A model generated the notes under the pieces. That model saw only the letters and a program-made list of their open reading frames with translations, was not told the DNA's origin and ran no database searches. A stretch of DNA of 33,832 bases from Candidatus Woesearchaeota archaeon (GTDB lineage: Archaea; Nanobdellota; Nanobdellia; SCGC-AAA011-G17; GW2011-AR20), in the NCBI GenBank assembly GCA_018303025.1, contig JAGVYZ010000017.1:1-33832 (forward strand), in the 5' to 3' direction. Position numbers and translations under genes: made by a program. Below, one piece after another: positions 2,180 to 31,705 of this stretch (position 1 is the first letter of the stretch; each line of letters starts with the position of its first letter).

Positions 2180-2205
2180 CAGGTTCGTGAAGGATGCAAT
2201 CCTTA
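2180..2205 (+). repeat. Dispersed hairpin repeat, complete copy A
   Basis: Head CAGGTTCGTG followed by stem AAGGAT, loop GCA and stem ATCCTT, then A. It is preceded by a T-run ending in TAG, like most other copies. It lies in the spacer upstream of the EF-1A promoter. Confidence 0.85.
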
Positions 2206-2222
2206 CTTTGCCTTCTTTAATC

Positions 2223-2250
2223 AAAACTTTTCTTCGCGAAGAAAAGTTTT
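2223..2250. promoter_or_regulatory. Perfect 28-bp palindrome overlapping the EF-1A TATA box
   Basis: AAAACTTTTCTTCG is followed directly by its exact reverse complement with no spacer. The right arm runs into the TATA box TTTATAAA at 2248-2255. Transcription would start near 2277, so the palindrome probably lies outside the mRNA. That favours a double-stranded DNA site over an RNA hairpin. Confidence 0.7.
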
Positions 2251-2255
2251 ATAAA
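2248..2255 (+). promoter_or_regulatory. TATA box of EF-1A
   Basis: TTTATAAA, with a predicted transcription start near 2277 and a Shine-Dalgarno GGAGG at 2293-2297. Confidence 0.7.
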
Positions 2256-2297
2256 GCCTGTTTTTCCAAGTTTAATATATAATTAATCATTCGGAGG

Positions 2298-3542
2298 ATC
2301 GTAGGTCATGTAGATCACGGAAAATCAACCACAGTCGGTAGATTATTATACGACTCTGGTAATATCTCAGAGCAGGCTTTGAGAAAATTAAAAGAAAAAG
2401 CAGAAGAATTAGGAAAAGGTGGATTCGAATTTGCTTTTGTAATGGATAACTTAAAAGAAGAGAGAGAAAGAGGAGTTACCATCGACTTAGCACATAAAAA
2501 GTTTGAAACACCAAAATTTGAATTTACAATTATTGATGCACCAGGTCATAAAGATTTTATTAAAAATATGATTACAGGAGCTTCTCAGGCAGATGTTGCT
2601 ATTTTAGTTGTTGCAGCTGCAGAAGGTGCAATGGCCCAGACAAAAGAGCACATAATGCTTTGTAGAACATTAGGTGTAGGACAAATGGGTGTAGCTGTCA
2701 ATAAGATGGATACAATCCAATATGACGAAGCTAAATTCAATAAAGTTAAAGGTGAAATTGAAGGAATTTTAAAAACAGTCGGTTACAAAGACATTCCTTT
2801 CATACCAGTATCTTCATTGCATGGCGAAAATATAGTTAAAAAATCAGATAAAATGTCATGGTATAAGGGACCTACATTACTTGAACAATTTGACTTGTTT
2901 AAAGTTCCAGAAAAACCAGTACACTTGCCATTAAGACTGCCAATCCAGGATGTATACAACATTACAGGTATTGGAACAGTTCCAGTTGGAAAAGTAGAAA
3001 CAGGAATAATGAAAGTAAATGATAAAGTAATAATTGTTCCAGCAAGAGAAGGTAAAGGTGTGGTTGGAGAAGTAAAAACAATAGAAATGCACCACGAACA
3101 AATTACTCAGGCAGAACCAGGAGACAATGTTGGATTCTCTGTTAGAGGTATCGGAATTAAAGATATCGCTAGAGGAGATGTATTAGGTCATGTATCTAGT
3201 CCTCCAACAGTTGTTGAAGAGTTTACTGCACAAATAGTAATCTTAAATCACCCAACTGTTTTAACAGTAGGCTATACTCCAGTATTCCATATTCACACAG
3301 CTCAGATAGCTTGTAGAATAACAGAGTTAGTCAAAAAGTTAAATCCAGCAACAGGTGAAACATTACAGGATCATCCTGATATGTTAAAGAACGGAGATGC
3401 AGCTATAGTTAAAGTAAAACCAGCAAAACCATTAGTAATTGAAAGACAAAAAGACATTCCTCATATGGCAAGATTTGCTATAAGAGATGCTGGTTCAACA
3501 GTAGCAGCTGGTTTCTGTATAGACTACGTTGCAAAGAAGTAA
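2298..3542 (+). CDS. tuf: Translation elongation factor 1-alpha (5' end anomalous)
   Basis: EF-1A is the GTPase that delivers aminoacyl-tRNA to the ribosome. The P-loop GHVDHGKST is encoded at 2304-2330, followed by the switch regions ([17 protein letters not shown]), the NKMD guanine-specificity motif and both beta-barrel domains to an intact C-terminus (FCIDYVAKK). The start is abnormal: the frame is open only from 2283, and no ATG, GTG or TTG precedes the P-loop. Family members carry about 8-11 more residues (pattern MAK..KPH.N..) before this point. GGAGG (2293-2297) directly abuts the first recognisable codons, ATC GTA GGT. The nearest ATG (2308) is out of frame and followed at once by TAG. 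Position 2298 marks where homology starts and is not a claimed start codon. A TTG at 2379 would remove the P-loop and is not credible. Confidence 0.9.
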
Positions 3543-3570
3543 TTAACTTCTTTTTTTCTTTATTTTTCTT

Positions 3571-4224
3571 TTAATAATGTTTTTTTCTTTCATTTAAATT
3601 TGCTTTATTAAAAAGATTGTAAACAACATAAGATAAGGTTCCTATAAATCCAATAGATAAATCCCACATAGTATCATCTAATTTTTCAATAACCATGTCA
3701 AATTTTCCCAATCCTTGTAAATTTCTTAAAAATACACCTTGCAATTTTAAATCAAAGAAGTAATCTAATAAATATTCACCAATCTCAAATAAAGCCAGAC
3801 TTCCAATTACAATAAATAAAACAAAAATAATCTTCCACTTATATTCTAAATCCAATCTTTTTACCATATGATAAACAATAGAAGCATAAAATATAGGTTG
3901 TATGAAATGTAATATCTTATCATAATTAGGATAGAGATAATAAAAAGGACTTAATATAAATCCAAAAAATGCAATAAATACAATAAAGAAATAATGATGT
4001 TTTTGATAGTTTAAATCAAAATATCTGTCTATTAAATAGAAAGATACCAATAAGCTCATAGCAGAAAGTGCTCTTATAAAAAAAGAGGCATTTTTGAATA
4101 AATATAAAACTATTAAAATAAAGACACAAATCCCAATTATAACTCTCCTTTTTATTCTATATTTTCTGTTCTTGTCAGGATCCATCCCTCCCTTAGAATG
4201 CTGAAGTTTATGAACATTTCCCAA
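3571..4224 (-). CDS. YjdF-like (DUF2238-type) integral membrane protein
   Basis: A 217-residue protein with about six transmembrane segments after a basic N-terminus. Between helices sit YDKILHF, LFEIGEYLLDYFF and DDTMWDLSIGFIGTL. These resemble the conserved polar motifs of the YjdF/DUF2238 family, whose function is not established. The first ATG (4224) lies 24 nt from the centre of a shared TATA box, suggesting a leaderless start. A second ATG at 4185 (MDPDKN) has GGGAGGG just upstream but with almost no spacing. The gene sits on the opposite strand between EF-1A and uS10, which are neighbours in many archaea, so it interrupts a conserved pair. Confidence 0.65.
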   Translation of the reverse strand: MGNVHKLQHSKGGMDPDKNRKYRIKRRVIIGICVFILIVLYLFKNASFFIRALSAMSLLVSFYLIDRYFDLNYQKHHYFFIVFIAFFGFILSPFYYLYPNYDKILHFIQPIFYASIVYHMVKRLDLEYKWKIIFVLFIVIGSLALFEIGEYLLDYFFDLKLQGVFLRNLQGLGKFDMVIEKLDDTMWDLSIGFIGTLSYVVYNLFNKANLNERKKHY

Positions 4225-4244
4225 GAAAAATCTAAAACAAAACG

Positions 4245-4252
4245 TTTATAAA
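4245..4252. promoter_or_regulatory. Symmetric TATA box shared by divergent genes
   Basis: TTTATAAA is its own reverse complement. It lies 27.5 nt before the uS10 ATG on the + strand and 24.5 nt before the ATG at 4224 on the - strand. No second TATA box is evident in the 51-bp gap, so one box may serve both directions. Confidence 0.6.
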
Positions 4253-4275
4253 TGAAATTTTAAGCTTAATTTAAA

Positions 4276-4584
4276 ATGCAAAAAGCAAGAATAAAATTAG
4301 CAAGTGCAGAAATAGACAAGATTAATCAAATCTGTGATTCTATCTTAGAAGTTTGTAAAAAAACAAAGACAAAGGTCTATGGTCCTATTCCTTTACCTAC
4401 TAAAAAAATGAAAATTACAACAAGAAAATCTCCTGATGGAGAAGGTAAAGCTTCTTTTGAAAGATACCAGATGAGAGTTCATAAAAGATTAATTGATTTA
4501 GGTGTAGACGAAAGAGCATTAAGATTAGTAATGAGAGTCCCTATCCCAGATGGTGTTAACATATCTATAGAGATTCTTGAATAA
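4276..4584 (+). CDS. rps10: Ribosomal protein uS10
   Basis: A 102-residue protein of normal length for archaeal S10, a 30S subunit protein. The N-terminal ARIKLAS, the loop KVYGPIPLPTKK, RKSPDGEGKASFERYQMRVH and the C-terminal RVPIPDGVNISIEI are all typical. The ATG lies one TATA spacing (27.5 nt) from the promoter, so the transcript is probably leaderless. EF-1A, S10 and tRNA-Ser are a known archaeal neighbourhood, and the tRNA follows here. The first head of the dispersed repeat begins 2 nt after the TAA stop. Confidence 0.96.
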   Translation: MQKARIKLASAEIDKINQICDSILEVCKKTKTKVYGPIPLPTKKMKITTRKSPDGEGKASFERYQMRVHKRLIDLGVDERALRLVMRVPIPDGVNISIEILE

Positions 4585-4585
4585 G

Positions 4586-4691
4586 CAGGTTCGTAAAAGG
4601 TCTTTCTTTGGCAGGTTCGTAATGTTTTTTTCTTAGTGCAGGTTCGTAATGTTTTTTTCTTAGTGCAGGTTCGTAAAGGGTGCAACCCTTA
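4586..4691 (+). repeat. Repeat array B: three head-only units then one complete hairpin copy
   Basis: Heads CAGGTTCGTAA begin at 4586, 4612, 4639 and 4666. Units 2 and 3 (4611-4637, 4638-4664) are identical 27-bp tandem copies with a seven-T tract. The last unit (4666-4691) is complete: stem AAGGGT, loop GCA, stem ACCCTT. A further degenerate head, CAGGTTT, lies at 4734. The array fills the spacer between uS10 and tRNA-Ser. Confidence 0.85.
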
Positions 4692-4820
4692 CTTCAATAG
4701 AAATTTTAGAATAAATTGGTTTTTTCTTTAGCACAGGTTTATTTTGCAAAAAGAAAAGTGTTTTAAAACAATAAATTCTTTTTTATTTACGCCGGGATCG
4801 CGTAATCTGGTATCGCACAG

Positions 4821-4871
4821 AGCTTTTCTTGTAAGAAAACCTCTAGGAAAAGAACACAAAAAAGCGTGTAA
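4821..4871 (+). other. tRNA intron 1 (51 nt, between positions 29 and 30)
   Basis: The bulge-helix-bulge core is exact. Exon bases GCAC (4815-4818) pair with intron bases GTGT (4866-4869). The 5' bulge is AGA (4819-4821) and the 3' bulge is AAG (4870-4872). An inner helix pairs GCTTTT (4822-4827) with AAAAGC (4860-4865). Cutting after the second base of each three-base bulge gives precisely the boundaries needed for a paired anticodon stem. No outer helix is visible, as is common for non-canonical positions. Confidence 0.88.
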
Positions 4872-4879
4872 GTCTGGAA

Positions 4880-4893
4880 ATATGCAACGGGAA
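4880..4893 (+). other. tRNA intron 2 (14 nt, canonical 37/38 position)
   Basis: Its removal is needed to bring ACCTG next to the anticodon loop. Runs of A on both sides leave the cut ambiguous by up to three bases. The 37/38 choice gives bulges AAA and AAA and a weak central helix CTGG/CGGG with one G-G mismatch. The outer helix is complete only after intron 1 is removed, which would order the two splicing events. Confidence 0.75.
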
Positions 4894-4941
4894 AACCTGG
4901 CCTTTCGGGGCTTCTGGGTTCAAATCCCAGTCTCGGCGTAC

Positions 4942-5379
4942 TTAAATTTTTTCATTTAGAATTAAAGGTATTTCTCTTTCTCTAATGGTTGATAGTATTA
5001 TGATTTCTAATCCTGCACTTAATGGTGTTATAATGCATCGTTCTTTATTATGCTTAATTACACAAGTATATGCATTTGGATCCAGAGGGTCTAAATCTTC
5101 AGCTCTACTGAGATAATGTGCCATATGGTTTCTTACTTCAGTTGCATTTACTCGAGGTATTGAATCGGAAGGTGTGACTATTAAAGAATATATTGCTGTT
5201 GCAATTAATTTTTGATGATTTACTACTAGCAAAAACTTTTGACTTCTAATTAATTTTAAGTAACTTGCAAATTCATTCCTGAAATCAGTAGCAGTTATTC
5301 TTCTTAATTCCAAATCTCGTAGAGTCGAATATAAATCATCTAAATTAAACTCTCCAAGAGAAATATAGGATTTGTTCAT
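4942..5379 (-). CDS. Tandem Phd/YefM-like antitoxin-type protein
   Basis: A 145-residue protein that appears to contain two copies of the Phd/YefM fold. The first copy starts at RITATDFRNEFASYLK (about 28-43) and the second at RVNATEVRNHMAHYLSRAED (about 80-99). Each is followed by strands like those after the Phd N-terminal helix (FLLVVNHQKLIATAIYS; TCVIKHNKERCIITPLS). Phd proteins normally bind operator DNA and neutralise a toxin encoded next door. No toxin gene is visible beside it: one neighbour is the tRNA, whose 3' end lies 3 nt from this stop codon, and the other is psmB. It may be an orphan regulator. The assignment rests on motif pattern only. Confidence 0.6.
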   Translation of the reverse strand: MNKSYISLGEFNLDDLYSTLRDLELRRITATDFRNEFASYLKLIRSQKFLLVVNHQKLIATAIYSLIVTPSDSIPRVNATEVRNHMAHYLSRAEDLDPLDPNAYTCVIKHNKERCIITPLSAGLEIIILSTIREREIPLILNEKI

Positions 5380-5454
5380 ACTTTTTTTAAATACTAAAAG
5401 CTTAAAAATCTTTCATAATAAATTTTTAACTAACCAAAAATCATCAGCAAAAAG

Positions 5455-5462
5455 TTTATAAA
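5455..5462 (+). promoter_or_regulatory. TATA box of psmB
   Basis: TTTATAAA centred 37 nt before the psmB ATG, predicting a leader of about 10-12 nt. Confidence 0.65.
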
Positions 5463-5495
5463 CAACCAATAGATAAGGAAATTAAGTGAATTCTT

Positions 5496-6110
5496 ATGGA
5501 ATACCAAAAATTAGAAACCGGAACAACTAATGTAGGAATAGTCTGCAAAGATGGAGTTATCTTGGCAGCAGATAGGCGTGTCACCTTAGGTGGAAGAATA
5601 ATTTCTTCAAAGAAATTTGAAAAATTCGCAGAATTAAATGATGATTCAGCAGTTGTTTTCTCAGGTTCAGTATCAGATGTCCAATTAATATTAAAAATAA
5701 TAAAAGCACAATTAAGATTAGACTTTTTCAGAAGGCAAAAAAGATTAACAGGAAGAAGCACATCTTCATTATTGGCAAATATGGTTTATAATAATTTAAG
5801 AAAAATGTTCCCGGGTATAACTGGTTTTGTTCTTGCAAATAAAACAAAAGATAAATTTTCATTATATAGCATAGGCGTAGATGGAAGCATTGTTCAGTTT
5901 GATGACTACACAACAGATGGTTCAGGAATGATGTTTGCAGCAGGTGTCTTAGAAGGAAATTACGATAAAAATATAACAGTAAAAGAAGGAGTAGAATTAG
6001 CAAAAAAAGCAGTTACAGCATCAATGGAAAGAGATGCTGCATCAGGTAACGGCATTGATATATTGGCAATAACAAAAGACGGAATTAATAAAATTTCAGT
6101 ATCAAGATAA
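5496..6110 (+). CDS. psmB: Proteasome beta subunit
   Basis: The catalytic subunit of the 20S proteasome. A short propeptide MEYQKLETG is followed by TTNVGIVCKDGVILAADRR. Autocleavage after G9 would free the nucleophile Thr10 (mature Thr1). Mature D17 and the lysine in SSKKFEKFAEL (mature K34, one residue displaced relative to the usual K33) complete the catalytic set. The GSG motif (SGNGIDI, DGSGMMF) region is present. At 204 residues the length is normal. The gene is followed by aCPSF1 in the same direction, a pairing seen in other archaea. A repeat array lies between the two genes. Confidence 0.95.
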   Translation: MEYQKLETGTTNVGIVCKDGVILAADRRVTLGGRIISSKKFEKFAELNDDSAVVFSGSVSDVQLILKIIKAQLRLDFFRRQKRLTGRSTSSLLANMVYNNLRKMFPGITGFVLANKTKDKFSLYSIGVDGSIVQFDDYTTDGSGMMFAAGVLEGNYDKNITVKEGVELAKKAVTASMERDAASGNGIDILAITKDGINKISVSR

Positions 6111-6124
6111 AATTCTAAATAAAT

Positions 6125-6203
6125 CAGGTTCACAGGAAAATTATTCCAGGTTCATGAAGGATGCAAGTTTTTATTTGCAGGTTCATGAAGGATGCAATCC
6201 TTA
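6125..6203 (+). repeat. Repeat array C: two partial units and one complete hairpin copy flush with aCPSF1
   Basis: Heads CAGGTTCAC (6125), CAGGTTCATGAAGGATGCAA (6147, lacking the right stem arm) and a complete copy at 6178-6203. The complete copy has stem AAGGAT (6188-6193), loop GCA and stem ATCCTT (6197-6202). Its final A is the first base of the aCPSF1 start codon. Confidence 0.85.
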
Positions 6204-8095
6204 TGACAGAAATAATAAAAGAAATATTAAAGAATATTCCAGATAATAGTGTAATATCTTATTCTGGTTTCGAAGGAGCAAATATAGTTCTCTATACAAA
6301 TAGCAAGGATTTTTTTCTAAAAAATGACGAGTTAATTAGAGGCATAGTAAACATAGTAAAAAAAAGAATTGAATTAAGGCCAGACCCTTCTTTATGCATG
6401 GATGAAGAAAAAACAAAAAAAGAAATTATTGCTTTAATACCAGAAGAAGCTAAAATAGGCGAAATAATTTTCGACCCTCAGCGTTCAATAGTTATAATTG
6501 AATCAGAAAAACCAGGTGTAGCTATAGGAAAATCAGGTGAAATACTAAAAGAAATAAAACATAAAACATTCTGGATTCCTGAAATAAGAAGAACACCTTC
6601 AATAAGGTCACCAATAATAGAAAAAATTCGCCAGGTTTTATATGAAAATAATGATTATAGAAAAAAATTTCTTGATAAAGTAGGAAAAAGAATTTATGAC
6701 AATTGGAGTAATAGTAAAAAAGAAATGTGGATTAGAGCCACTTTCTTAGGTGCAGGAAGACAAGTAGGCAGATCATGTATTTTGCTCCAAACACCTGAAT
6801 CTAGAATAATGCTAGATTGTGGTGTAGATGTTTCAGCTCAAGAGCCAAAAGATGCTTTTCCTTATTTAGATGCACCTGAGTTTAAATTAGACCAGTTAGA
6901 TGCAATAATAATCTCTCATTCTCATCTCGATCATGTTGCATTAGTTCCTTATTTGTACAAATTAGGATTTCAAGGTCCATGTTACATGACAGAACCAGTC
7001 AGAGATGTAGCTTCATTATTAGCATTAGATTACATTAGCGTATCACAAAAAGAAGCAAGAAAAGTATTATTTTCTTCAACAGATGTAAAAGAAATGGTTA
7101 AGCATACAATTTGCCTGGACTTTGAAGAAGTTACAGATATAACACCAGATATAAGATTAACATTTTACAATTCAGGTCATACCTTAGGAAGTGCATTATG
7201 TCATTTGCATATTGGAAATGGCCTGCATAATTTATTATATACAGGTGATATCAATTATGAAGTAACTAATTTATTGAATCCAGCAGTAACAAGATTCCCA
7301 AGATTAGAAACATTAATCATAGAATCAACTTATGGTGGAAAAGATGATGTTCGTCCAACAAGACAAGAATCAGAACAGGAATTATTTAATATAATAAAAG
7401 AAACATTGGAAAAAGGCGGAAAAGTATTATTGCCTACATTAGGTGTTGGCAGGTCCCAGGAAATTATGCTAATAATAGAAAAAGCAATTAGAAATAATTT
7501 ATTGCCAAAAGTTTCTGTTTACTTGCAGGGAATGGTTTGGGATATCACAGCTATACATACAGCTTATCCTGATTTTTTAAGTAATATAGTAAAAAAAGAA
7601 ATTTTCCATAATGATAGTAATCCATTCTTAAATGAAATATTTAAAAGAGTTGGAAGTAAGAAAGAAATGGACCAAGTAGTGGAAGGTGGTCCATGCGTTA
7701 TCATAGCTACTTCAGGTATGATGGAAGGTGGTCCTTCTGTAGAATACTTTAAACAATTAGCAGACAATGCAAAAAATTCATTAATCTTGAATTGCTATCA
7801 GGGTCCAAATACATTAGGTAGAAAATTATTGAATGGAGACAAAGAAATAATGTTTGATTCAGAATCTACCCCATTAAAAGTCAAAATGAATATTTATCAT
7901 ATTCCAGGATTTTCAGGACATAGTTCCAGACAGCAATTATTAAATTATTTAAAGCATGTTTCCCCTAAACCAAAAAAAGTAATATTAGTTCATGGTGAAA
8001 GTTCTAAATGTTTAGACTTGGCTACAGCAATTCACAAGCAAGAGCATATAGAAACAAACGCTCCCAAGAACTTAGAAGCAATTAGGTTAAGGTAA
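6203..8095 (+). CDS. aCPSF1, KH-domain beta-CASP ribonuclease
   Basis: The archaeal homologue of CPSF73, an RNase that processes mRNA 3' ends and drives transcription termination. From the ATG at 6203 it has 630 residues, close to the family norm. N-terminal KH-type domains include GKSG (about 109-112). The metallo-beta-lactamase core carries HSHLDH (239-244), where HAHLDH is commoner, then GHTLGSA, YTGDI and ESTYGG. The beta-CASP domain has LPTLGVGRSQE, ATSGMMEGGPS and GFSGHSSR. An upstream in-frame ATG (6161) would add 14 residues encoded entirely by repeat sequence, and family alignment favours 6203. The complete repeat copy ends on the start codon and can fold so that GAAGGAT, the only Shine-Dalgarno-like sequence, is paired. 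Confidence 0.93.
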   Translation: MTEIIKEILKNIPDNSVISYSGFEGANIVLYTNSKDFFLKNDELIRGIVNIVKKRIELRPDPSLCMDEEKTKKEIIALIPEEAKIGEIIFDPQRSIVIIESEKPGVAIGKSGEILKEIKHKTFWIPEIRRTPSIRSPIIEKIRQVLYENNDYRKKFLDKVGKRIYDNWSNSKKEMWIRATFLGAGRQVGRSCILLQTPESRIMLDCGVDVSAQEPKDAFPYLDAPEFKLDQLDAIIISHSHLDHVALVPYLYKLGFQGPCYMTEPVRDVASLLALDYISVSQKEARKVLFSSTDVKEMVKHTICLDFEEVTDITPDIRLTFYNSGHTLGSALCHLHIGNGLHNLLYTGDINYEVTNLLNPAVTRFPRLETLIIESTYGGKDDVRPTRQESEQELFNIIKETLEKGGKVLLPTLGVGRSQEIMLIIEKAIRNNLLPKVSVYLQGMVWDITAIHTAYPDFLSNIVKKEIFHNDSNPFLNEIFKRVGSKKEMDQVVEGGPCVIIATSGMMEGGPSVEYFKQLADNAKNSLILNCYQGPNTLGRKLLNGDKEIMFDSESTPLKVKMNIYHIPGFSGHSSRQQLLNYLKHVSPKPKKVILVHGESSKCLDLATAIHKQEHIETNAPKNLEAIRLR

Positions 8096-8155
8096 TTTGT
8101 TTTCTTTCAGGAATTTCTTTTCCATGAAAACTTTTGTTTTCAGGGTCCCAAAGTA

Positions 8156-8193
8156 TTCAGCTTTGCTGAATGTTAGAAGAGACTTGCTCTTCT
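8156..8193 (+). terminator. Two tandem hairpins downstream of aCPSF1
   Basis: TTCAGC-TTT-GCTGAA (8156-8170) and AGAAGAG-ACTTG-CTCTTCT (8175-8193) are both perfect stems. They lie in the 192-nt gap before the FHA gene. A role in 3'-end formation or mRNA stability is inferred only. Confidence 0.45.
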
Positions 8194-8287
8194 TTAATCT
8201 TGTCTTTTAGGATGTAAAAGAAACCTAAGCAATAAGATTGAGATAGTTATACAAAAAGTTTAAGTATATAATTTATTTTTTAGTTAT

Positions 8288-9646: not shown

Positions 9647-9697
9647 GGTAATTTTCTTCTGTATTATATAAAATATATATTGCAAATATTAGCAATA

Positions 9698-9705
9698 TTT
9701 ATAAA
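9698..9705 (+). promoter_or_regulatory. TATA box of the 9751 secreted-protein gene
   Basis: TTTATAAA at a suitable distance from the ATG at 9751. A 7-bp inverted repeat AAATATT-AGC-AATATTT (9684-9700) overlaps its left edge, but in such AT-rich DNA it may be chance. Confidence 0.6.
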
Positions 9706-9750
9706 TAAAAGGGTAAATTGAAAGACTCCAATTAATAAAAAGAGGCAAAA

Positions 9751-10170: not shown

Positions 10171-10209
10171 ATTCAAAACTTTATTAAACTTAGTTTTCTT
10201 TTTTCTTTT

Positions 10210-10647
10210 ATGAAATTAAAATACAAACAGCTTCCAGAATTAACAACAGCAGATATTGCTTATGAGATTTATGGAAAAAATTTAAATGAACTCTTTGAAA
10301 ACTCAGCATTAGCTTTATTCAACACAATGTGCAATTTAAAGAAAGTCAAGCAAAAAATAAAAAAAATAATCAAATTAAAAAATGAAAATTCTCAGGATTT
10401 ACTCTTTGATTTTATAGAAGAGTTAATTTTCTTAAAAGACTCAAAATATATCTTATTCTCAAAATTCAAAGTCAAAATAAAAAATAATGAACTACAAGCA
10501 GAATGTTTCGGCGAAAATATTAATCAAGCCAAGCACCAATTAAAAGTAGACGTTAAAGCAATTACATATCATAAATTTGAACTAAAAAAAATGCAGGGTC
10601 ATAAGGGGAGCAACCCCTATATAGCAAGAATGGTTTTGGATATTTAA
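10210..10647 (+). CDS. Archease, activator of the RtcB RNA ligase
   Basis: A 145-residue protein matching archease throughout. The N-terminus has TTADIAYEIYGKNLNELFEN (usually HTADIA, so the family His is Thr here). LLFDFIEELIFLKDS and VDVKAITYHKFELKK follow, and the end is ARMVLDI. Archease promotes guanylation of RtcB, which joins tRNA exons after intron removal. This fits the two-intron tRNA-Ser in this window. The loop before the last strand reads MQGHKGSNPYI and is encoded by an in-frame copy of the dispersed repeat (10594-10619), where relatives have a short turn. The gene starts a cluster with the HExxH protein (gap 1 nt) and the TrmI-like gene. Confidence 0.9.
   Translation: MKLKYKQLPELTTADIAYEIYGKNLNELFENSALALFNTMCNLKKVKQKIKKIIKLKNENSQDLLFDFIEELIFLKDSKYILFSKFKVKIKNNELQAECFGENINQAKHQLKVDVKAITYHKFELKKMQGHKGSNPYIARMVLDI
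10594..10619 (+). repeat. Dispersed hairpin repeat, copy D, in frame inside archease
   Basis: Head CAGGGTCATA, stem AGGGG, loop AGCAA, stem CCCCT. Compared with copies A and C, extra G-C pairs replace A-T pairs on both sides, so pairing is kept. Confidence 0.8.
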
Positions 10648-10648
10648 C

Positions 10649-23055: not shown

Positions 23056-23067
23056 ACTATTGCTTGA

Positions 23068-23943: not shown

Positions 23944-23996
23944 ATCACCCCTCTTGTATTAATAAATATTATGTAATTTTTATATATAAATCTTTC

Positions 23997-24125: not shown

Positions 24126-24214
24126 TCATATTGCATTGTTATACAGATTTTTTTAATAAATATAAAAATAGATCACTCTTAATAAATTTAAAAGTGACAG
24201 TCCTTCTTTTTAGC

Positions 24215-24379
24215 ATGAATACAACTCAAATAAAAAAAGTAATGAAAAAGTACAAAGATGCTTGGGAAAAGCAGGATTCTAACCTAATTTTAGAATGTTT
24301 TACTAAAAATGGTATTTATCAGGAAAGACCTTATGAACAACCAAATGTTCCAGATATAACTTATCAACTCTATGTTTAA
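24215..24379 (+). pseudogene. Truncated NTF2-like (SnoaL-type) gene
   Basis: 54 codons from the ATG at 24215. MKKYKDAWEKQDSNLILECF and TKNGIYQERPYEQP match the first helices of the NTF2-like fold, where proteins are normally about 110-130 residues. After EQP the sequence diverges (NVPDITYQLYV) and stops, so about half the domain is missing. It lies next to the transposase remnant, which may have caused the break. Confidence 0.6.
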
Positions 24380-24463
24380 TGTTTATTGAAAAGTAATTTT
24401 TCTTTTTCCTAAAGACATTCTGCTTTCTTTTTATCGAAGATTTTTCTTAGTGTTTTCTTTTTC

Positions 24464-24493
24464 AGGACTTTTTCTTTTACAAAAGAAAAACCT
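24464..24493 (-). terminator. Hairpin at the 3' end of gltX
   Basis: On the minus strand AGG, TTTTTCTTTT, a short loop, AAAAGAAAAA and CCT form an extended stem that abuts the gltX stop codon. T-rich sequence follows. Consistent with 3'-end formation. Confidence 0.5.
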
Positions 24494-26172
24494 CACTTAT
24501 GTCCAAAAAAGAAAACTAATTTATTTTTAAGTTTTTTATCAAGTCTTAAGAATCCAAATCTTTCAGCCTGAATAACTTCATTCTCTTTTACCTTAAGCAA
24601 GTTTTTCTCTCCAAAACCATTAACAATAGAACCATCTTCTAAATAAACTTCAACATTTATTTTCTCATTTTCAGGCAGCCAGTGCATTATTCTTTCTCCT
24701 TTGCCCTTATATTCATCATGTGTCCTGGAATGAAAAGTAAATTTACTCGCTTCAAGAGTAAAATTCAAGCAATCCATTAATCTATAAAGTTTATTCTCAT
24801 TAAGCATGTCAAAATCTTTTCTTTCAATTAAAAAATTTTCATAAGTATTAAACTTCCTTCCTTTTTTCCTTAATTCAGGATGCAGGTTTAATTCAACTTT
24901 CTGTTTAGGTGCATTAGAAACTTTAATTTGAACAGGATTCAAAACAAAAAAATACCTGTTAGCTTTTTCATCAACTTCTTCTTTATTATAAGAAGAAAGT
25001 GTATCAAAACTAACATTGATATTATTTTTATTCATTCCTAAATCAAATATGAATTTAGACAAAGCTTCTGCCTTAAACCCTCTTCTTTTCAAAGCTAATA
25101 TTGTCAATAATCTAGGATCATCCCATCCTAATAATTTTCCTTGTTTAATTAATGCTCTAGTCTTAGAAGTGCTTTTAATATCATTAAAAATTAATTTTCC
25201 AGTGTAAATTGTTTCAGGATAATTCCAGTTAAAATAAGAATAAAGATATTTTTGTCTTACATCAGAAATTTGTAAGTCAATTCCTCTGATAATATGAGTA
25301 ACCCCTAATAATTTGTCATCAACAGCAGAAGCAAAATTTAACAAAGGCCAGACTTTAGCATTTTTCTCTAAAGGATGATTATTATTTTTATTATCTACAA
25401 TCCTGAATCCAGGCCAGTCCCGAGCAGCAGGATTGCTATCCATAATATTTGTTTTTATTCTATAAACAGCCTCACCTTCTTTATAGGAAGTAAACATTTT
25501 TTTCCATCTTTCCAATTGTTCTGTAACACTTAAATTCCTGCAAGGACATTCTATTTTTTTATCTCTTAATTTTCTATATTCTTTAACATCACAAGTGCAA
25601 ATATAAGCCCAATTTTTTTTAATAACAGTTTCAGCATATTTGTAATAAATTTTTAGCCTTGAAGATTGTATAACTTTCTTGGAAATATTAACACCTAAAA
25701 ATTTCAAGTCATTTTCAATCCATTTGTAAGCATCTTTTAAAGGATATTTTCCTTTAGGATCAGTATCATCATATCTTAAAATAAATTTTCCTTTATACTT
25801 TTTAACATAAAACCAGTTCAATAATGCCTGCCTGCTTCTTCCTAAACTTAAAGGACCATTTGCATTTGGTGCAAACCTCATCACAACATTTCCATGATGA
25901 ACATTTTCTAATTCATGCAATTCTCTTTTTTTCTCTTCTTTTTTATTATCTAATAATTCAGGGTCAATTTTCTCTATTTCATGAATCTGTTTTTCTAATG
26001 TCCAGGAATTAACTTCTTTTACAGTATCTTTAATATCTTTCATTAAATCTTTAATTTTTTCTTTAAGTTCAGGCTTTTCAGATAATATTTTTCCAATAAC
26101 AGCGCCTTCACTTGCCTTCCCATTAAACTTGACTGCATTTTGCAATGCATACTTTAAAATTAAAGTTTTCAT
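24493..26172 (-). CDS. gltX: Glutamyl-tRNA synthetase, archaeal type
   Basis: A 559-residue class I synthetase of the archaeal/eukaryotic GlnRS-like type: an N-terminal helical region (1-90), then the Rossmann fold starting MRFAPNANGPLSLGRSRQ. The HIGH motif is replaced by SLGR (109-112), and KMSKS is reduced to STSKT (333-337). Cysteines 192, 194, 209 and 211 form a likely zinc site. The C-terminal anticodon-binding beta barrel is complete (YEGKGERI-like region to GFLRLDKK). A TATA-like AATATTTATAC centred about 25 nt before the ATG predicts a leaderless mRNA. A hairpin follows the stop. Confidence 0.93.
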   Translation of the reverse strand: MKTLILKYALQNAVKFNGKASEGAVIGKILSEKPELKEKIKDLMKDIKDTVKEVNSWTLEKQIHEIEKIDPELLDNKKEEKKRELHELENVHHGNVVMRFAPNANGPLSLGRSRQALLNWFYVKKYKGKFILRYDDTDPKGKYPLKDAYKWIENDLKFLGVNISKKVIQSSRLKIYYKYAETVIKKNWAYICTCDVKEYRKLRDKKIECPCRNLSVTEQLERWKKMFTSYKEGEAVYRIKTNIMDSNPAARDWPGFRIVDNKNNNHPLEKNAKVWPLLNFASAVDDKLLGVTHIIRGIDLQISDVRQKYLYSYFNWNYPETIYTGKLIFNDIKSTSKTRALIKQGKLLGWDDPRLLTILALKRRGFKAEALSKFIFDLGMNKNNINVSFDTLSSYNKEEVDEKANRYFFVLNPVQIKVSNAPKQKVELNLHPELRKKGRKFNTYENFLIERKDFDMLNENKLYRLMDCLNFTLEASKFTFHSRTHDEYKGKGERIMHWLPENEKINVEVYLEDGSIVNGFGEKNLLKVKENEVIQAERFGFLRLDKKLKNKLVFFFGHK

Positions 26173-26206
26173 AAAAAAAAGTAATTTTACAAGTATAAAT
26201 ATTTAT

Positions 26207-26531
26207 CTATGAACTAACGCTTTTCAATTCAATTTTTACATCTATGCTAGGAATACCTCTTCTTGAAAGATTAATAAAAATCAAATTTTGAGCTTCTCTG
26301 GATAAAAGCTTATCATTCTGCGTTTCAAAGATAAGAGAACCATTATCCCTATTTACCCCCAGGTTCATAATATAAAACATCTCCTTCCCATCTAAACCTG
26401 TCAGAAGAAACAGGATACTGTTCCCTGGTTCCTCGTATACTTTCAACAATAGCAGGAATAACACTACCCTTATTACCATTCAAATTATTAAAGTAAAAAG
26501 AATATCTAAAATAGATTATCACATCATCCAT
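26207..26531 (-). pseudogene. Small gene split by a frameshift at a G5 run
   Basis: Two overlapping frames make sense only when joined. The first starts at 26531 (MDDVIIYFRYSFYF...) and reads to GDVLYYEPGG then a stop at 26349. The second carries VNRDNGSLIFETQNDKLLSR to the end at 26207. Both switch at CCCCC on the + strand (26356-26360; GGGGG in the mRNA). Removing one G would give one protein of about 107 residues reading YYEPGVNRDNG. No family recognised. A TATA-like sequence 25 nt before the ATG suggests it was or is expressed. Sequencing error, true decay or frameshifting are all possible. Confidence 0.6.
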
Positions 26532-26623
26532 TTTCTTGGAGTTAAAATTTGATTTATAAGAATGATTATATTAAAAAAAGTATTATGAAAAAGTGTTATT
26601 TTTCTTAAGTAGTAGGTTAGCTT

Positions 26624-26631
26624 TTTATAAA
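26624..26631 (+). promoter_or_regulatory. TATA box of the zinc-ribbon gene
   Basis: TTTATAAA centred 27.5 nt before the ATG at 26655, leaderless spacing. Confidence 0.65.
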
Positions 26632-26654
26632 TCAAAGGATTCTGCAATCCCACT

Positions 26655-27095
26655 ATGGTAAAATGCCCAAGCTGCGGTCACGAATTTGAAGATATAAAGC
26701 CAGGTATTTTCAGCAGACCAAATACAAGAAGTATTTTTTCTGATAATTCTTCAAGTATCTTTCCTAACAATAGACCAATGCCTATGCAATCACAGCCTTC
26801 TTATCAGCAACCACAACAGCAACCAGTTCAGCCACAACAACAAGAACAATCTCAACCAGTGCAACAGCCTTCTTATCAGCAGCCAGAGCAACAAAAACCA
26901 GTATTTCAGCCACAGCCTTCTTCTCAATCTTCATATCAATCACATTCTGAACCAGTAACACAGCAAAGACAGCATATTGCAATTACAACAGGTAATAGAA
27001 CAATAAGCCCAGAAGAACAAGAAAAGAGAAAAAGAGAACAAGAATCAGCAGCTCGCATTTTATCTTTCGCAGCTCAAGGCAAAAAAACTCGATAA
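26655..27095 (+). CDS. Zinc-knuckle protein with Gln/Pro-rich low-complexity region
   Basis: A 146-residue protein. It begins MVKCPSCGHEFEDI, a CPxCGH half zinc ribbon. Residues about 38-105 are low complexity, dominated by Gln, Pro, Ser and Tyr, with SYQQP repeated (YQQPQQQP, YQQPEQQ). The C-terminus (about 112-146) is a charged helix (SPEEQEKRKREQESAARIL) ending in a basic KKTR. The composition resembles prion-like domains that drive condensation, which is unusual in a small archaeal genome. A leaderless start is likely. The function is unknown; nucleic-acid association is inferred. Confidence 0.7.
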   Translation: MVKCPSCGHEFEDIKPGIFSRPNTRSIFSDNSSSIFPNNRPMPMQSQPSYQQPQQQPVQPQQQEQSQPVQQPSYQQPEQQKPVFQPQPSSQSSYQSHSEPVTQQRQHIAITTGNRTISPEEQEKRKREQESAARILSFAAQGKKTR

Positions 27096-27097
27096 AT

Positions 27098-28546
27098 TTA
27101 TTTTGAAAAAATTTCTCTTATTTTCATTTTAGCTTCTTTAATTTGTTCATCGCTTAATTTAATTCCTTCTAAAGTATGTTCAGGCTCGCTTGTAATAGAG
27201 TAAATTCTTTCTTCAGACTCTGCTTGTCTTTTCATACCCATAGGCAATTCAGGAGCAAATCCTATTGCTTTTTGAACATCTTCTGGAAATTTTCCAGGAT
27301 CAGCAGTTTCATAAATAACTGCCAATTGAGAAGGTTCAATAAAATGTTCTAAAGCTCTCCACCCTACTGCTCCATGAGGATCAAGAATAACTCCAAATCG
27401 TTCATAAACATCTTTCATTGTTTTATAATGTTCTGGATTAGTTACACTTATTGAAACAATATCTCGCCTCATTGCATCAATATCAGGCATAATATCAATA
27501 ATTCCTTCTCTAATAACTTTTTTAGTTATAGGGTCTCTTTCATCAAACATATGTCCATTATAAAAATCAATTAACCTTGCTAAATTACCTGGATGAGAAA
27601 CAATCATTGCTGAAGATGGTGATTCTTTAGAACTACTAACAACATATTTTCCAGTTCTTAAAAAATCAGGAAATTCAGTATTTTCATTCACTCCACAAAT
27701 AATTTTTCCAATAGGCAAACCCATTTCTTTTGCAATTACAGTTCCCATCATATCCCCAAAGTTTCCAGAAGGTATGCTCATAATTACTTGTTCTCCATTT
27801 GCAATTCTTGAATAAGCAAAGAAAGGATAAACAGCTTGGGGCAATAATCTTCCAACACTAATTGAATTAGCAGAAGTTATTCTTTCTTCATCCCCAAATA
27901 TTTCACCTGCAAATTTTTTATCACCTAAAATAATCCTTGCAAGTGCCTGGCAAACATCAAAATCTCCATTTACTTCAAAAGCATAAACATTTCCCTTTAA
28001 TGTAGTCATTTGCCTTCTCTGACCATCACTAACTAAACCTTTAGGAAAGAATACAATATTATCAACATTATCTAAGCCATATAAAGCATCAGCAACAGCA
28101 CCGCCAGTATCACCGCTAGTTGCAACTATAACCATTCTTTTAAGGCTTCTTTCACCAAGAAAATAATTAAGTGCTCTTCCAAAAAATCTCGCAGCATAAT
28201 CTTTAAATGAATATGTAGGTCCATTAGTTAACCACAAAATATGAGTTCTATCAGTAACATGCTGAACATTAGTTAGAATTTTATCTTCAGAATATGCATC
28301 ATTTAATAATTCTTCAAGTTTTGCAAAAGGAATTTCAGAACCAAGAAATAGATTAAGAACTTGAAATGCAATTTGTGAATATGATTGCTGAGACATATCT
28401 CTTATTTGTTCAGAAGATAGTTTAGGAACATTCCCTCTAGCCATCATATACAAACCATAATTAGAAGCCATTCCGTTTAATAAAGCAGTTTGAAAATTTA
28501 CTATCTCTAATTTATTATTTGTACTATAATAAGTAACAGGTCTCAT
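27098..28546 (-). CDS. thrC: Threonine synthase
   Basis: A PLP enzyme converting O-phosphohomoserine to threonine. From the ATG at 28546 (482 residues): YYSTNN near the start, TNGPTYSFKDYAARFFGRAL with PLP lysine K115, ATSGDTGGAVADAL (phosphate-cup region), IPSGNFGD, and a complete C-terminus. It resembles the longer bacterial/yeast-type ThrC. An in-frame upstream ATG (28564) is disfavoured because TTTATAAA (28568-28575) is centred 25 nt before 28546, giving a leaderless start. It is a single gene; no other threonine-pathway gene is visible here. Confidence 0.93.
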   Translation of the reverse strand: MRPVTYYSTNNKLEIVNFQTALLNGMASNYGLYMMARGNVPKLSSEQIRDMSQQSYSQIAFQVLNLFLGSEIPFAKLEELLNDAYSEDKILTNVQHVTDRTHILWLTNGPTYSFKDYAARFFGRALNYFLGERSLKRMVIVATSGDTGGAVADALYGLDNVDNIVFFPKGLVSDGQRRQMTTLKGNVYAFEVNGDFDVCQALARIILGDKKFAGEIFGDEERITSANSISVGRLLPQAVYPFFAYSRIANGEQVIMSIPSGNFGDMMGTVIAKEMGLPIGKIICGVNENTEFPDFLRTGKYVVSSSKESPSSAMIVSHPGNLARLIDFYNGHMFDERDPITKKVIREGIIDIMPDIDAMRRDIVSISVTNPEHYKTMKDVYERFGVILDPHGAVGWRALEHFIEPSQLAVIYETADPGKFPEDVQKAIGFAPELPMGMKRQAESEERIYSITSEPEHTLEGIKLSDEQIKEAKMKIREIFSK

Positions 28547-28567
28547 TTTAATAAAACCAAGCAAAAG

Positions 28568-28575
28568 TTTATAAA
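28568..28575 (-). promoter_or_regulatory. TATA box of thrC
   Basis: TTTATAAA centred about 25 nt from the ATG at 28546; it selects that start over 28564. Confidence 0.65.
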
Positions 28576-28615
28576 GCTAATTTTTTCTTTACCTTTTACC
28601 TGATTAAGTTTTTAG

Positions 28616-28660
28616 CAGGTTCGTGAAGATATTTTGGGTTCATGAAGGGAGAATCCCTTA
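28616..28660 (+). repeat. Repeat array F upstream of the uL1 operon
   Basis: A head CAGGTTCGTGAAG (28616-28628) is followed by a complete copy GGGTTCATG, stem AAGGGA, loop GAA, stem TCCCTT (to 28660). TGGTGCAACCCTAACCC after it looks like a piece of another copy's hairpin. The closing stem pair here is A-T, where other copies have T-A or G-C. Confidence 0.85.
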
Positions 28661-28712
28661 TGGTGCAACCCTAACCCGTACAACTACAATAGTTCAGTAG
28701 GAGGGAAATAAA

Positions 28713-29525
28713 TTGGATAAAGGTCAAATATTAGAAACAATAAAACTTGTAAAAGAACATTCTCCTAAAAAGAAATTCAACCAGACCTTAGATATGATTG
28801 TTAATTTAAAAAATCTTAATCTTAAAAATCCAAATGAAAATATGGACTTATTTATTACAGTGCCTCATAAAATAAAAAAGCCAAAGATTTGCGCTATTGT
28901 AGGTCGGGAATTAGAAACATCAGCAAAGATTTTTGATAAAGTAGTTAACATAGAAGAATTAGAAGTATTAAAAAAAGACCAGAAAGAAGTAAAAAGACTT
29001 TCTAATCAATTTGATTTCTTTATTGCTCAGGCAAATTTAATGGCTGGAATAGCAACAGCATTCGGTAAAATTCTAGGTCCTAGAGGTAAAATGCCAAATC
29101 CAAAAGCAGGTGGAGTTGTTTTGCCAAATTCTAATTTAGAGCAGGTAAAAGAAAAATTTAATTCTTTAGTCCAGATAAAAACAAGAAAAGAATTAGTAAT
29201 AAAAACTCCTGTTGGAAAAGAAAACATGAGTGATGAAAATATTTTAGAAAATACAATGTTAATTTACAATGCTTTAATTCATGCATTGCCTCAAGAAGAA
29301 GCAAATGTTCGCGAGGTAATATTCAAGCTTACAATGGGCCCAGCAATAAAAGTTGGAGCAAAGAAAGAAGATATTTTAGCAAAAGTAGTAAAAGAAACAA
29401 AAAAAGAACCTAAAAAAGAAAACAGGTTCGTAAAGGATTCCAAGTCCATAAAGGATTCCAAGTCCATAAAGGATTCCAGGTCCATAAAGGATTCCAGGTT
29501 CATGAAGGGTGGAACCCTTATATAA
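28713..29525 (+). CDS. rpl1: Ribosomal protein uL1 with repeat-built C-terminal tail
   Basis: The start codon is TTG at 28713, with GGAGGG 10 nt upstream (28700-28705 region). The core is typical L1: ILGPRGKMPNPKAGGVVLP, a stretch that binds 23S rRNA, and MGPAIKVG. Archaeal L1 is about 215-220 residues; this one is 270. The last 34 residues (from about 237) come from the dispersed repeat: an 18-nt unit translated as KDSKSI or KDSRSI four times, then RFMKGGTLI from a complete copy whose end supplies the TAA. L1 proteins often repress their own operon by binding the mRNA leader. It is the first gene of uL1-uL10-L12. Confidence 0.95.
   Translation: MDKGQILETIKLVKEHSPKKKFNQTLDMIVNLKNLNLKNPNENMDLFITVPHKIKKPKICAIVGRELETSAKIFDKVVNIEELEVLKKDQKEVKRLSNQFDFFIAQANLMAGIATAFGKILGPRGKMPNPKAGGVVLPNSNLEQVKEKFNSLVQIKTRKELVIKTPVGKENMSDENILENTMLIYNALIHALPQEEANVREVIFKLTMGPAIKVGAKKEDILAKVVKETKKEPKKENRFVKDSKSIKDSKSIKDSRSIKDSRFMKGGTLI
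29423..29522 (+). repeat. Repeat array G: four 18-bp head units plus one complete copy, inside uL1
   Basis: Units at 29423-29440, 29441-29458, 29459-29476 and 29477-29494 are versions of CAGGTCCATAAAGGATTC. A complete copy follows at 29495-29520 with stem AAGGGT (29505-29510), loop GGA and stem ACCCTT (29514-29519). The period is a multiple of three, so the frame is kept. Confidence 0.9.
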
Positions 29526-29526
29526 A

Positions 29527-30309
29527 ATGCCAAAAAACCAGCCAAGAATAAATGAAGCTAAAAGAAGCGAAGTTGAAAAACTTAAAGAGTTGCTTAGAAA
29601 GTACTCTGTTATTGGTATTGCTGATTTAACTAGCTTGCCTTCCAGACAATTGCAAGCAATAAGAGCAAAATTAAAAAAAGAATTAACAATAAGAAATTTC
29701 AAGAAAAGATTTGTTAAAATAGCAATAAGTGAAATAAAAGCAGAAAAAGATTTATCATCTTTGGAGCCTTTTTTAAAAGATTCAAATCCAGCAATTTTAT
29801 TTTCAAATAATGATCCATTTAAATTATCAAAAGAAATCAGAAAATCAAAATCAAAGAGCAAAGCAAAGCCAGGGCAAAAAGCACCTCGTGATTTAATCAT
29901 AGAAGCAGGTCCTACTAATTTTACACCAGGCCCAATTATTGGAGAATTAGGCCAATTAGGAATAGTTGCAGCAGTAGAACAAGGAAAAATTGCAATTAAA
30001 AAAGATAAAGTCCTAGCTCATGAAGGCGAAGAAATTTCAGGAAAAGCAGCTGAATTATTATCAAAATTAGGTGTAGAACCAATGGAAATTGGTCTTAATG
30101 TATTAGTATTTTATGATAAAGGAACACTTTATAAAAAGGATATTTTGGATGTAGATGAAGCAGAATATATTAGAAGATTAGTGTTAGCTTATAGAGAAGC
30201 ATTAACATTGTCAGTATCAATAGAATATCCTACAAAAGATAATGTTTCAAAATTAATTGCAAAAGCAGACAATGAAGTTAAAGCAATAAAAAATAAAATA
30301 AAGTTATAA
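29527..30309 (+). CDS. rpl10: Ribosomal protein uL10 (P0)
   Basis: The stalk base protein that anchors L12. From the ATG at 29527 it has 260 residues: EVEKLKELLRKYSVIGIADL, TSLPSRQLQAIRAKLKKE, DLIIEAGPTNFTPGPIIGEL, and the spine helices YIRRLVLAYREALTLSV. The usual archaeal C-terminal tail, acidic and ending in a GLG.LFG motif for factor binding, is absent; the protein ends ADNEVKAIKNKIKL. An upstream in-frame GTG (29509) would add residues made only of repeat sequence. The start lies 1 nt after the uL1 stop and 7 nt after a repeat hairpin containing GAAGGGTGG, a possible Shine-Dalgarno. Confidence 0.94.
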   Translation: MPKNQPRINEAKRSEVEKLKELLRKYSVIGIADLTSLPSRQLQAIRAKLKKELTIRNFKKRFVKIAISEIKAEKDLSSLEPFLKDSNPAILFSNNDPFKLSKEIRKSKSKSKAKPGQKAPRDLIIEAGPTNFTPGPIIGELGQLGIVAAVEQGKIAIKKDKVLAHEGEEISGKAAELLSKLGVEPMEIGLNVLVFYDKGTLYKKDILDVDEAEYIRRLVLAYREALTLSVSIEYPTKDNVSKLIAKADNEVKAIKNKIKL

Positions 30310-30327
30310 TCAGGGAGGAAAATAAAA

Positions 30328-30615
30328 ATGGAGTATATGCACGCTGCAATGTTATTACACAAAGCAGGAAAGAAAATAGATGAAGAGCATATGACTAAAG
30401 TATTAACAGCAGTCAGTGTCACAATAGACCATGCTAAAATAAAGGCAATAGTCTCTGCATTAGACGGCGTTAATATTGATGAAGAAATAAAGAATGCATC
30501 AGCTGTAGTAGCATCAACACATGAAGCAAAAGTAGAGAAGAAAGAAGAGAAAAAGGAAGAAAAGAAAGTTGATGAAAGTGCGGCAGCCGCAGGTCTTGGA
30601 AGCCTATTTGGCTAA
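30328..30615 (+). CDS. rpl12: Ribosomal protein L12 (archaeal P1)
   Basis: A 95-residue stalk protein. The N-terminal dimerisation domain (MEYMHAAMLLHKAGKKIDEE, DGVNIDEEI) is followed by an Ala and Lys/Glu hinge and the factor-binding end AAAGLGSLFG. A Shine-Dalgarno AGGGAGGA precedes the ATG. With uL10 lacking its own tail, L12 would carry all copies of the LFG motif on the stalk. Confidence 0.96.
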   Translation: MEYMHAAMLLHKAGKKIDEEHMTKVLTAVSVTIDHAKIKAIVSALDGVNIDEEIKNASAVVASTHEAKVEKKEEKKEEKKVDESAAAAGLGSLFG

Positions 30616-30658
30616 TTTTTTTCATTTTTAGCAACATGCTTAGAAATTTAGACGCAAA

Positions 30659-31501
30659 ATGGAAGAGAATAAAGAAAAAAGTAGTTTGAAGAAGGAAATA
30701 TCAGAGTTAAAAACAAGACTTAATGATATAAACCAAAAAAAAGAGCTTTTCTACAATAAAAAAGAAGAACTCAAGAAAAAAACTAATTCTTTAATTACTG
30801 AAATTAAATCATTAAAGGAAAATACATCTAGTTCTAAAGAGAATAAATCAAATAGGGATGAACTAAATAAAAAAGTTAAAACATTAGTTGAAGAAGCAAA
30901 AAAGCTCAATCAGGAAAAAAAAGATTTTATGCAAAAGCATAATATCATAAAAGACCCTTCTTCTATTAAAAGTTTGATTGACAGCATGCAGTATAAAATA
31001 GAAACAGAAGCTCTTTCAATGGAAAAAGAAAAATCAATGATGAAGAAAATAAAGGAATTAAGAAAAGAATATAGTGCTTCATCAGAACTAAAAAAAGTCA
31101 TTGATAAATTATCCCTAATATCAAAAGAAATAGATGAAACAAGACAAAAAGCAGATTCATTTCATAAAAAATTAACAGAAGGTTCTTCTGAACATTCTGA
31201 AAAATTTAAAGCTTTAAGCACAGAAATAGAAAAAATAAAGACAGAGGAAGAGGAAGCTTTCAAGAAATTTTTAGATTATAAAAAAGAATTCCTGGAAATA
31301 AACAATTCATTAAAGGAAAAACTAAAAGAATCAAGCAAATTCTCAGAAAGAACAGAAGAAACAAGAGAAAGGAAAAAAGAGACAAGAAAAGAGAAAAATA
31401 GTGAATTATTAAAAGAAAAAGCAAAAGACGTTGAAGAAAAGATAAAAACAAAGAAAAAACTTACAACAGAAGATTTACTTGCTTTCCAGTCTTCTGAATA
31501 G
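30659..31501 (+). CDS. Archaeal coiled-coil protein (COG1340-like)
   Basis: 280 residues, almost entirely coiled coil, with no hydrophobic segment. The end, TKKKLTTEDLLAFQ, matches the conserved C-terminus of the uncharacterised archaeal coiled-coil family COG1340. It follows L12 by 43 nt and may be part of the operon. A hairpin AGGTTT...AAACCT (31500-31520) sits at its stop codon and could end transcription. Confidence 0.75.
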   Translation: MEENKEKSSLKKEISELKTRLNDINQKKELFYNKKEELKKKTNSLITEIKSLKENTSSSKENKSNRDELNKKVKTLVEEAKKLNQEKKDFMQKHNIIKDPSSIKSLIDSMQYKIETEALSMEKEKSMMKKIKELRKEYSASSELKKVIDKLSLISKEIDETRQKADSFHKKLTEGSSEHSEKFKALSTEIEKIKTEEEEAFKKFLDYKKEFLEINNSLKEKLKESSKFSERTEETRERKKETRKEKNSELLKEKAKDVEEKIKTKKKLTTEDLLAFQSSE

Positions 31502-31579
31502 GTTTCCAAAAAGAAAACCTGAAAAGAAAGCGAAAAGTTGTAAAAACTCTTTAATTTAACAGTAAATATTTTCTTAATG

Positions 31580-31705
31580 CAGGTCGTTTGTTGGGTTCAT
31601 GAAAGGCGCAGCCCTTATGTCGTAAGGGATGCAGGTTTTGTTAACAGGTTCGTGAAGGTGTTAACCTTTTTTTCTCTAGCAGGGTCGTAAGGGGTGCAAC
31701 CCCTA
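31580..31705 (+). repeat. Repeat array H: partial and three complete hairpin copies
   Basis: Partial heads at 31580 and 31632. Complete copies at 31593-31617 (AAAGGC-GCA-GCCCTT, one imperfect pair), 31645-31668 (AAGGT-GTTA-ACCTT followed by seven T) and 31680-31705 (AAGGGG-TGCAA-CCCCTA). It is the densest and most diverged cluster in the window. Confidence 0.85.

Follow-up and report, generated by a model that had tools for sequence, protein, structure and literature searches.

Short hairpin repeats with a bulged stem occupy one strand per contig in the genome of a DPANN-type archaeon

Short palindromic repeats are widespread and, to our knowledge, no mechanism of spread is established for most of them. 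Here we report on a family of such repeats, each made of a short head followed by a bulged hairpin, in the 33,832-nucleotide contig JAGVYZ010000017.1 (the window) of a Candidatus Woesearchaeota draft genome (G000, in which the window is contig C32). Among the closest described systems, the repetitive extragenic palindromes (REPs) associate a short 5' motif with a 20-40 bp hairpin, which has a conserved bulge in one group, and are present as many dispersed copies, mostly in spacers and sometimes in genes (PMC8266576, PMC3733652). REPs usually form inverted doublets (PMC3116915), and TnpA-REP requires the 5' motif and the bulge of the folded single strand (PMC8266576). Rickettsia palindromic elements (RPEs) are palindromic units of 105-146 bp with terminal inverted repeats, located in spacers and in frame within conserved protein genes (PMC2229807). 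Finally, the IS200/IS605 transposases (Y1 HUH) recognize hairpins and act on the lagging-strand template (PMC6006769).

The G000 draft comprises 1.06 Mb in 55 contigs, and its genes for EF-1A, archaeal uS10, FttA/CPSF, archease and Cdc6 assign it to a DPANN-type archaeon. When the genome was searched with a covariance model (R1, built from 23 copies, with 27 positions and 8 pairs), at least 85 full copies (at least 30 bits) were found on 33 contigs, in addition to dozens of partial heads. The head 10-mer CAGGTTCRTG was present 62 times and its reversed control was absent; furthermore, 11 identical copies were located at unrelated loci. The density was uneven: part of contig C28 had about 4.5 clusters per 10 kb, as against about 0.5-1 per 10 kb elsewhere. 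The sequence-only reading, which had proposed a dispersed family from the window, is thus joined by many further copies in the genome.

The most informative feature, which that reading had not seen, is the strand polarity: all the window copies lie on the same strand. Among the 85 full copies, 16 contigs carry two or more; in none of them are the strands mixed (52 comparisons), irrespective of the direction of the genes. If the copies are independent, the probability of such unmixed strands is about 2^-52. To characterize the strand in question, skews at four-fold degenerate sites were oriented by the repeats. In genes co-oriented with the repeats, the GC skew was -0.53 and the TA skew -0.20; in genes of the opposite direction, the values were -0.03 and -0.25, respectively. 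The component that does not depend on gene direction was negative for both GC and TA in 21 stretches out of 21, meaning that the repeat strand is C-rich and A-rich. Polar words chosen from the skew stretches pointed the same way in 15 of the 16 held-out contigs. On the 102 kb contig C50, of which 96 kb were sampled, not one of the 24 bins disagreed. The repeat axis therefore coincides with the compositional axis of the chromosome. Because the single strand used on each contig is the C/A-rich one in an independent compositional test, the repeats are aligned with an axis resembling that of replication.

This polarity bears on two other explanations. According to the first one, the repeat is selected as a structured RNA, being either an expressed RNA element, which the sequence-only reading had kept as an alternative, or a terminator. 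The covarying hairpin (see below) would agree with this, as would the in-gene copies, 18 of 20 of which are co-oriented with their gene. Nevertheless, orientation tracks the strand of the chromosome rather than the neighbouring gene, and copies are found upstream of, downstream of and within genes on either strand; this independence from gene direction weakens the proposal. The folding energies, between -4.4 and -4.8 kcal/mol as DNA, are only modest, and Rfam gave no match at gathering score in the window, so that an RNA element appears very improbable. The second explanation is a polar chromosome motif. Chi and KOPS are strongly oriented 8-mers that lack a hairpin, are conserved across relatives and are not gene-invading inserts. 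A repeat of this type, whose orientation would be selected because a translocase or a nuclease reads it, would account for the near-perfect polarity with respect to the compositional axis, and other words are strongly polar in G000 as well (CAGCAG, 220 versus 21 on the repeat strand in 365 kb). On the other hand, the uneven density, the absence from relatives and the nested and degenerate copies do not fit with it, and a covarying hairpin would not be needed. We regard it as improbable.

The structure was examined on 81 genome copies (53 distinct). The unit of 27-29 nt is composed of a head, (G)CRGG[T/G]TC, and a hairpin, RT-(bulged purine)-AAGGRY...RYCCTTAY, in whose helix columns 8-9 and 11-16 are the partners of columns 28-29 and 22-27, respectively. 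The sequence-only reading had correctly recognized a head and a hairpin and missed the outer R-T/A-Y pairs as well as the bulged purine of column 10, which is unpaired and kept in 81 copies out of 81 (G in 56, A in 25). Over the distinct rows 98.8% of the cells were paired in this alignment, which was fitted to the model structure and so favours pairing; a hand-chosen MAFFT set (A2) gave the same covariation result. Changes on both sides of a pair were observed in 54 cells versus 15 in shuffles, and none of 500 shuffles reached 54. Sliding the partner by 1-3 columns destroyed the signal, a single column being sufficient to lower pairing to about 50%. The outer pair R8-Y29 is GC in 56 copies and AT in 25, with neither exceptions nor wobble intermediates. 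Three other pairs change on both sides; pair 16-22 is TA in 52 copies, CG in 20 and AT in 7. The paired variation of the stem, already remarked upon in the window, is thus real. In addition, head column 5 covaries with stem pair 12-26: T5 accompanies A12 (A-T) in 72 copies, and G5 accompanies G12 (G-C) in all 8 copies that have it. This association may be a subfamily mark rather than a contact, although a base triple or a guide-type contact could also produce it. A pairing of the head GGTT with a loop AACC was rejected by inspection, because the C-G subtypes (GGGCGGAGCCC) retain the head even though AACC is missing.

Replication errors in place of a transposase would likewise explain why the strand is fixed and why the paired changes lack intermediates: slippage would duplicate the heads, and quasi-palindrome template switching would copy one arm onto the other. 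The tandem partial-head units of 18, 26 and 27 bp and the lack of any wobble intermediate at R8-Y29 (0/81) are in line with such a process. However, arm copying should remove the bulge, which is always kept; the identical copies at unrelated loci are not a product of slippage, and in-frame inserts in conserved genes likewise argue against it. Replication errors are therefore an unlikely origin for the family as a whole.

Slippage is nevertheless also at work, as exact tandem heads of 18 and 27 bp are present. Other arrangements are in keeping with successive insertions of new copies into existing ones. At 28616-28674, an older copy is split, its head and 5' arm being separated from its 3' arm by a copy of the GGGAGAATCCC subtype; the same composite was found on contig C25. 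Similar remnants occur on contigs C7, C38, C52 and C53, including TTCGTGAAGG...CCTTAC directly behind a complete copy.

The location of 65 copies was compared with gene calls, which are simple open reading frames (ORFs) whose termini may be wrong. Thirty-four copies were intergenic, versus 12% expected (p about 1e-14), 11 overlapped gene ends and 20 were inside predicted genes, 18 in the direction of the gene and 2 opposite. In 16 of the 18 co-oriented cases the same frame is read (SRFVKGATLT-like), and one frame is closed by a stop. Insertion is thus in frame in conserved genes, in agreement with the earlier claim of an RPE-like invasion of spacers and coding genes. The copy in archease falls in the C-terminal hairpin, which it makes 5 residues longer, net, than in the 29 aligned relatives. 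In the minus-strand DUF167 gene, which is below the ORF length cut so that its copy was tallied as intergenic, about 10 residues are added with respect to relatives, close to the length of the 29-nt copy. The relatives of both proteins have no in-frame insert. The ribosomal L1 gene carries its copies at the C-terminus, and a gene that reads by eye as ribosomal L22 has one copy near each end.

Outside G000 the repeat is nearly absent. In 40 relatives, only 0-3 scattered matches each to CAGGTTCRTGAAGG, one mismatch being allowed, were detected, a level similar to that of the reversed-pattern control. In a 371-genome sample of the phylum, searched with the covariance model under stricter filters, matches were restricted to G000, G033 and G303. 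The last has one copy, at the same position as that in Pacearchaeota Meg22_46_Bin_225. G033 and G026 (same order, another family) contain a related version without bulge, for example CAGGTTGAT-AAGGGTGCAACCCTTAT; in G026, it has extra heads upstream and tandem heads, and on each of C42 and C63 is confined to a single strand. The viral contigs gave no match. No description was found in the literature on DPANN palindromic repeats or strand-biased repeats, a coverage that excludes most subscription journals. As Rfam gave no match in the window either, the family is apparently undescribed, as had been supposed.

Some isolated matches are also reported. The single copy of the distant Pacearchaeota genome (L060 7279-7305) is exact and lies beside a tRNA gene, either by horizontal transfer or by mis-binning. 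By eye, copies of G026 (L120, L124, L126) are apparently inside tRNA genes next to the T-loop, in an intron-like manner. At two loci of G000 (L006 and L018/L019, on C12 and C26), a longer shared repeat, GTGCACTTTCTTTAAATCACAAAGACAAAGTCTTTGGGACCC-like, adjoins the heads. A Paenibacillus match (L061), downstream of a chemoreceptor gene, was discarded as likely to be a chance terminator-like hairpin.

The fixed polarity together with the dispersal fits insertion into single-stranded DNA at replication forks, for which Y1 HUH enzymes (the IS200/IS605 transposases and TnpA-REP) offer precedents, and the strand bias along the chromosome suggests a spread tied to DNA replication. Thus, the explanation that we favour, with reasonable though not strong confidence, is a non-autonomous palindromic mobile repeat whose insertion is coupled to the fork and which is mobilised in trans by a putative enzyme processing single-stranded DNA. 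Insertion would have one constant polarity with respect to the movement of the fork, the enzyme would read the folded hairpin and its bulge, and those insertions in genes that persist would be limited to an open frame and to loops or termini. Existing copies would themselves become targets of new ones, so that partial heads and stranded 3' arms are left behind. The dispersal, structure, strand polarity, in-frame insertion, near-absence in relatives and nesting are those described above; the fork as the site, the single-stranded intermediate and the enzyme are the parts that we infer. The earlier interpretation as a mobile-type palindromic family is supported, the genome, covariance and Rfam comparisons having brought nothing that refutes it. 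A variant, which would be a new kind of minimal mobile DNA, in which a bare 27-nt bulged hairpin inserts almost exclusively in one orientation with respect to replication and with no Y1/RAYT transposase, by means of host replication enzymes (those of Okazaki-fragment processing, for example, or a primase-polymerase that takes the folded hairpin as its substrate), is doubtful.

Several observations weigh against insertion mediated in trans at the fork. The composition of contig C13 disagrees with its copy, the sole exception among the held-out contigs, and a degenerate copy (C50:8098) is on the opposite strand. The C/A-rich composition points to the lagging strand as the one that bears the head, and so does the position to the left of cdc6 on C47. 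Since, however, the repeats share their direction with several ribosomal-protein operons and with 54% of the coding DNA, the assignment was not adopted. A complete relative, G001, examined in order to fix leading versus lagging, showed no clear compositional skew, and the small-subunit rRNA, looked for as an orientation marker, is absent from the G000 draft. This draft is incomplete (87.5%), and no enzyme linked to the repeats was found in it; the missing part may hold the gene. The only Y1 transposase gene detected is an IS200-like tnpA (C20:8804-9151), located on the same contig as a copy of the repeat. The ends of this element had no covariance-model match and, by eye, contain unrelated hairpins with no CAGGTTC head; moreover, several relatives have IS200-like tnpA genes and no repeat. 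Because of these ends and these relatives, the gene was not assigned as the mobiliser. For the same reason as regards the ends, a miniature inverted-repeat transposable element derived from the resident element and sharing its ends, which the intact tnpA on a copy-bearing contig would favour, is most improbable. A second PF01797 match (C41) is spurious, since its ORF reads as valyl-tRNA synthetase. Finally, neither a target-site duplication nor an empty site was seen at DNA resolution in the relatives compared, which are too distant.

The copies of the window are collected below. The hairpin pattern matched 10 times versus 1.1 expected, and none of 100 shuffles reached 10. Of the ten complete copies first listed, nine are complete (39-47 bits), two of them shifted by one position (28636 and 31593 becoming 28635 and 31592), and that at 31645 is degenerate. 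Additional heads, which stand ahead of many copies, had been overlooked; in the window they are at 4586, 4612, 4639, 6147, 28616 and 29423.

Repeat copies and partial heads in the window
Feature	Position	Strand	Context	Score and domains
Full copy	2180..2206	+	Spacer upstream of EF-1A gene	45.8 bits
Three partial heads in tandem (units 26, 27, 27 bp), leading into full copy	4586..4665	+		
Full copy	4666..4692	+	After uS10 gene	46.7 bits
Partial copy: head and 5' arm, 3' arm replaced	6147..6177	+		23.7 bits
Full copy	6178..6204	+	5' end of FttA/CPSF-like gene, next ATG after hairpin	45.7 bits; Pfam KH_TffA, Beta-Casp
Full copy, GGGTC/AGGGG subtype	10594..10620	+	In frame within archease gene	39.1 bits
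Full copy, 29 nt, longer loop	20205..20233	+	In frame within minus-strand DUF167 gene	42.7 bits; Pfam PF02594
Head and 5' arm of older copy, interrupted by next copy	28616..28634	+		
Full copy, GGGAGAATCCC subtype, within older copy; the 3' part of the latter, GGTGCAACCCTAAC, comes next	28635..28661	+		39.7 bits
Partial heads, 18-bp tandem array	29423..29494	+	Coding tail of ribosomal protein L1	
Full copy	29495..29521	+	C-terminus of ribosomal protein L1 gene (...DSRFMKGGTLI)	45.8 bits; Pfam Ribosomal_L1
Full copy, then remnant TCGTAAGGGATGCA	31592..31618	+	Spacer	39.1 bits
Degenerate copy, short AAGGT/ACCTT stem	31645..31671	+		13.3 bits
Full copy, GGGTC/AGGGG subtype	31680..31706	+	Spacer	42.7 bits

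Other features were noticed in the same DNA. Between the first copy and EF-1A there is a perfect palindrome, AAAACTTTTCTTCGCGAAGAAAAGTTTT (2223-2251). The EF-1A gene itself (2290-2380) seemingly lacks its usual N-terminus, with no ATG, GTG or TTG ahead of the G1 box, which would imply an unusual start or an assembly error. At 4789-4938, a tRNA-like gene with a D-arm, a T-arm and a long insert is, by eye, probably an intron-containing tRNA; ARAGORN made no call there, even with introns allowed. Elsewhere in G000, an aRF1-like release factor gene (L063 1799-3205, contig C41) appears, by eye, to carry at the GGQ site an intein that includes a homing-endonuclease-like stretch.

The surprising part of these results is the near-absolute polarity, independent of genes, which ties the spread or the maintenance of the repeat to replication and makes the mechanism testable. 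Protein genes, including those of ribosomal proteins, are invaded in an RPE-like manner in a DPANN-type archaeon, with the hairpin pairs and the bulge kept. If the polarity holds in complete genomes, the direction of the fork in draft genomes could be read from the copies.

When compared with the known systems, the repeat resembles REPs and REPINs by its 5' motif, its hairpin with a conserved bulge and its dispersal, mostly in spacers. Unlike the REP foot, GT[AG]G or CGTC, the head is CRGG[T/G]TC; in the 81 copies, the AAGG arm is preceded by (C)RTG or (C)RTA, in which R and T are paired to the 3' AY, and neither foot is present. The inverted doublets of REPs are absent here, no contig mixing strands among the full copies; no RAYT flanked by copies was found in the 87.5% of the genome available, the strand is fixed on each contig, and the host is an archaeon whereas REPs belong to bacteria. 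With RPEs, the repeat shares its palindromic nature and its presence in spacers and in frame in conserved genes, but these elements measure 105-146 bp and have terminal inverted repeats, as opposed to a bulged hairpin of 27-29 nt, and no strand polarity of this kind is reported for them in the papers searched. The hairpin and the preference for one replication strand recall IS200/IS605 elements, which, however, have their own tnpA and two different ends, whereas the present repeats are gene-less and have no ends in common with the local IS200-like element. Chi and KOPS are similarly oriented along the chromosome, but the repeat is not conserved in the 40 relatives, bears a hairpin and enters genes. 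By its anatomy, it is thus a REP/RPE-like small palindromic mobile repeat, yet it is outside both families by the features tested.

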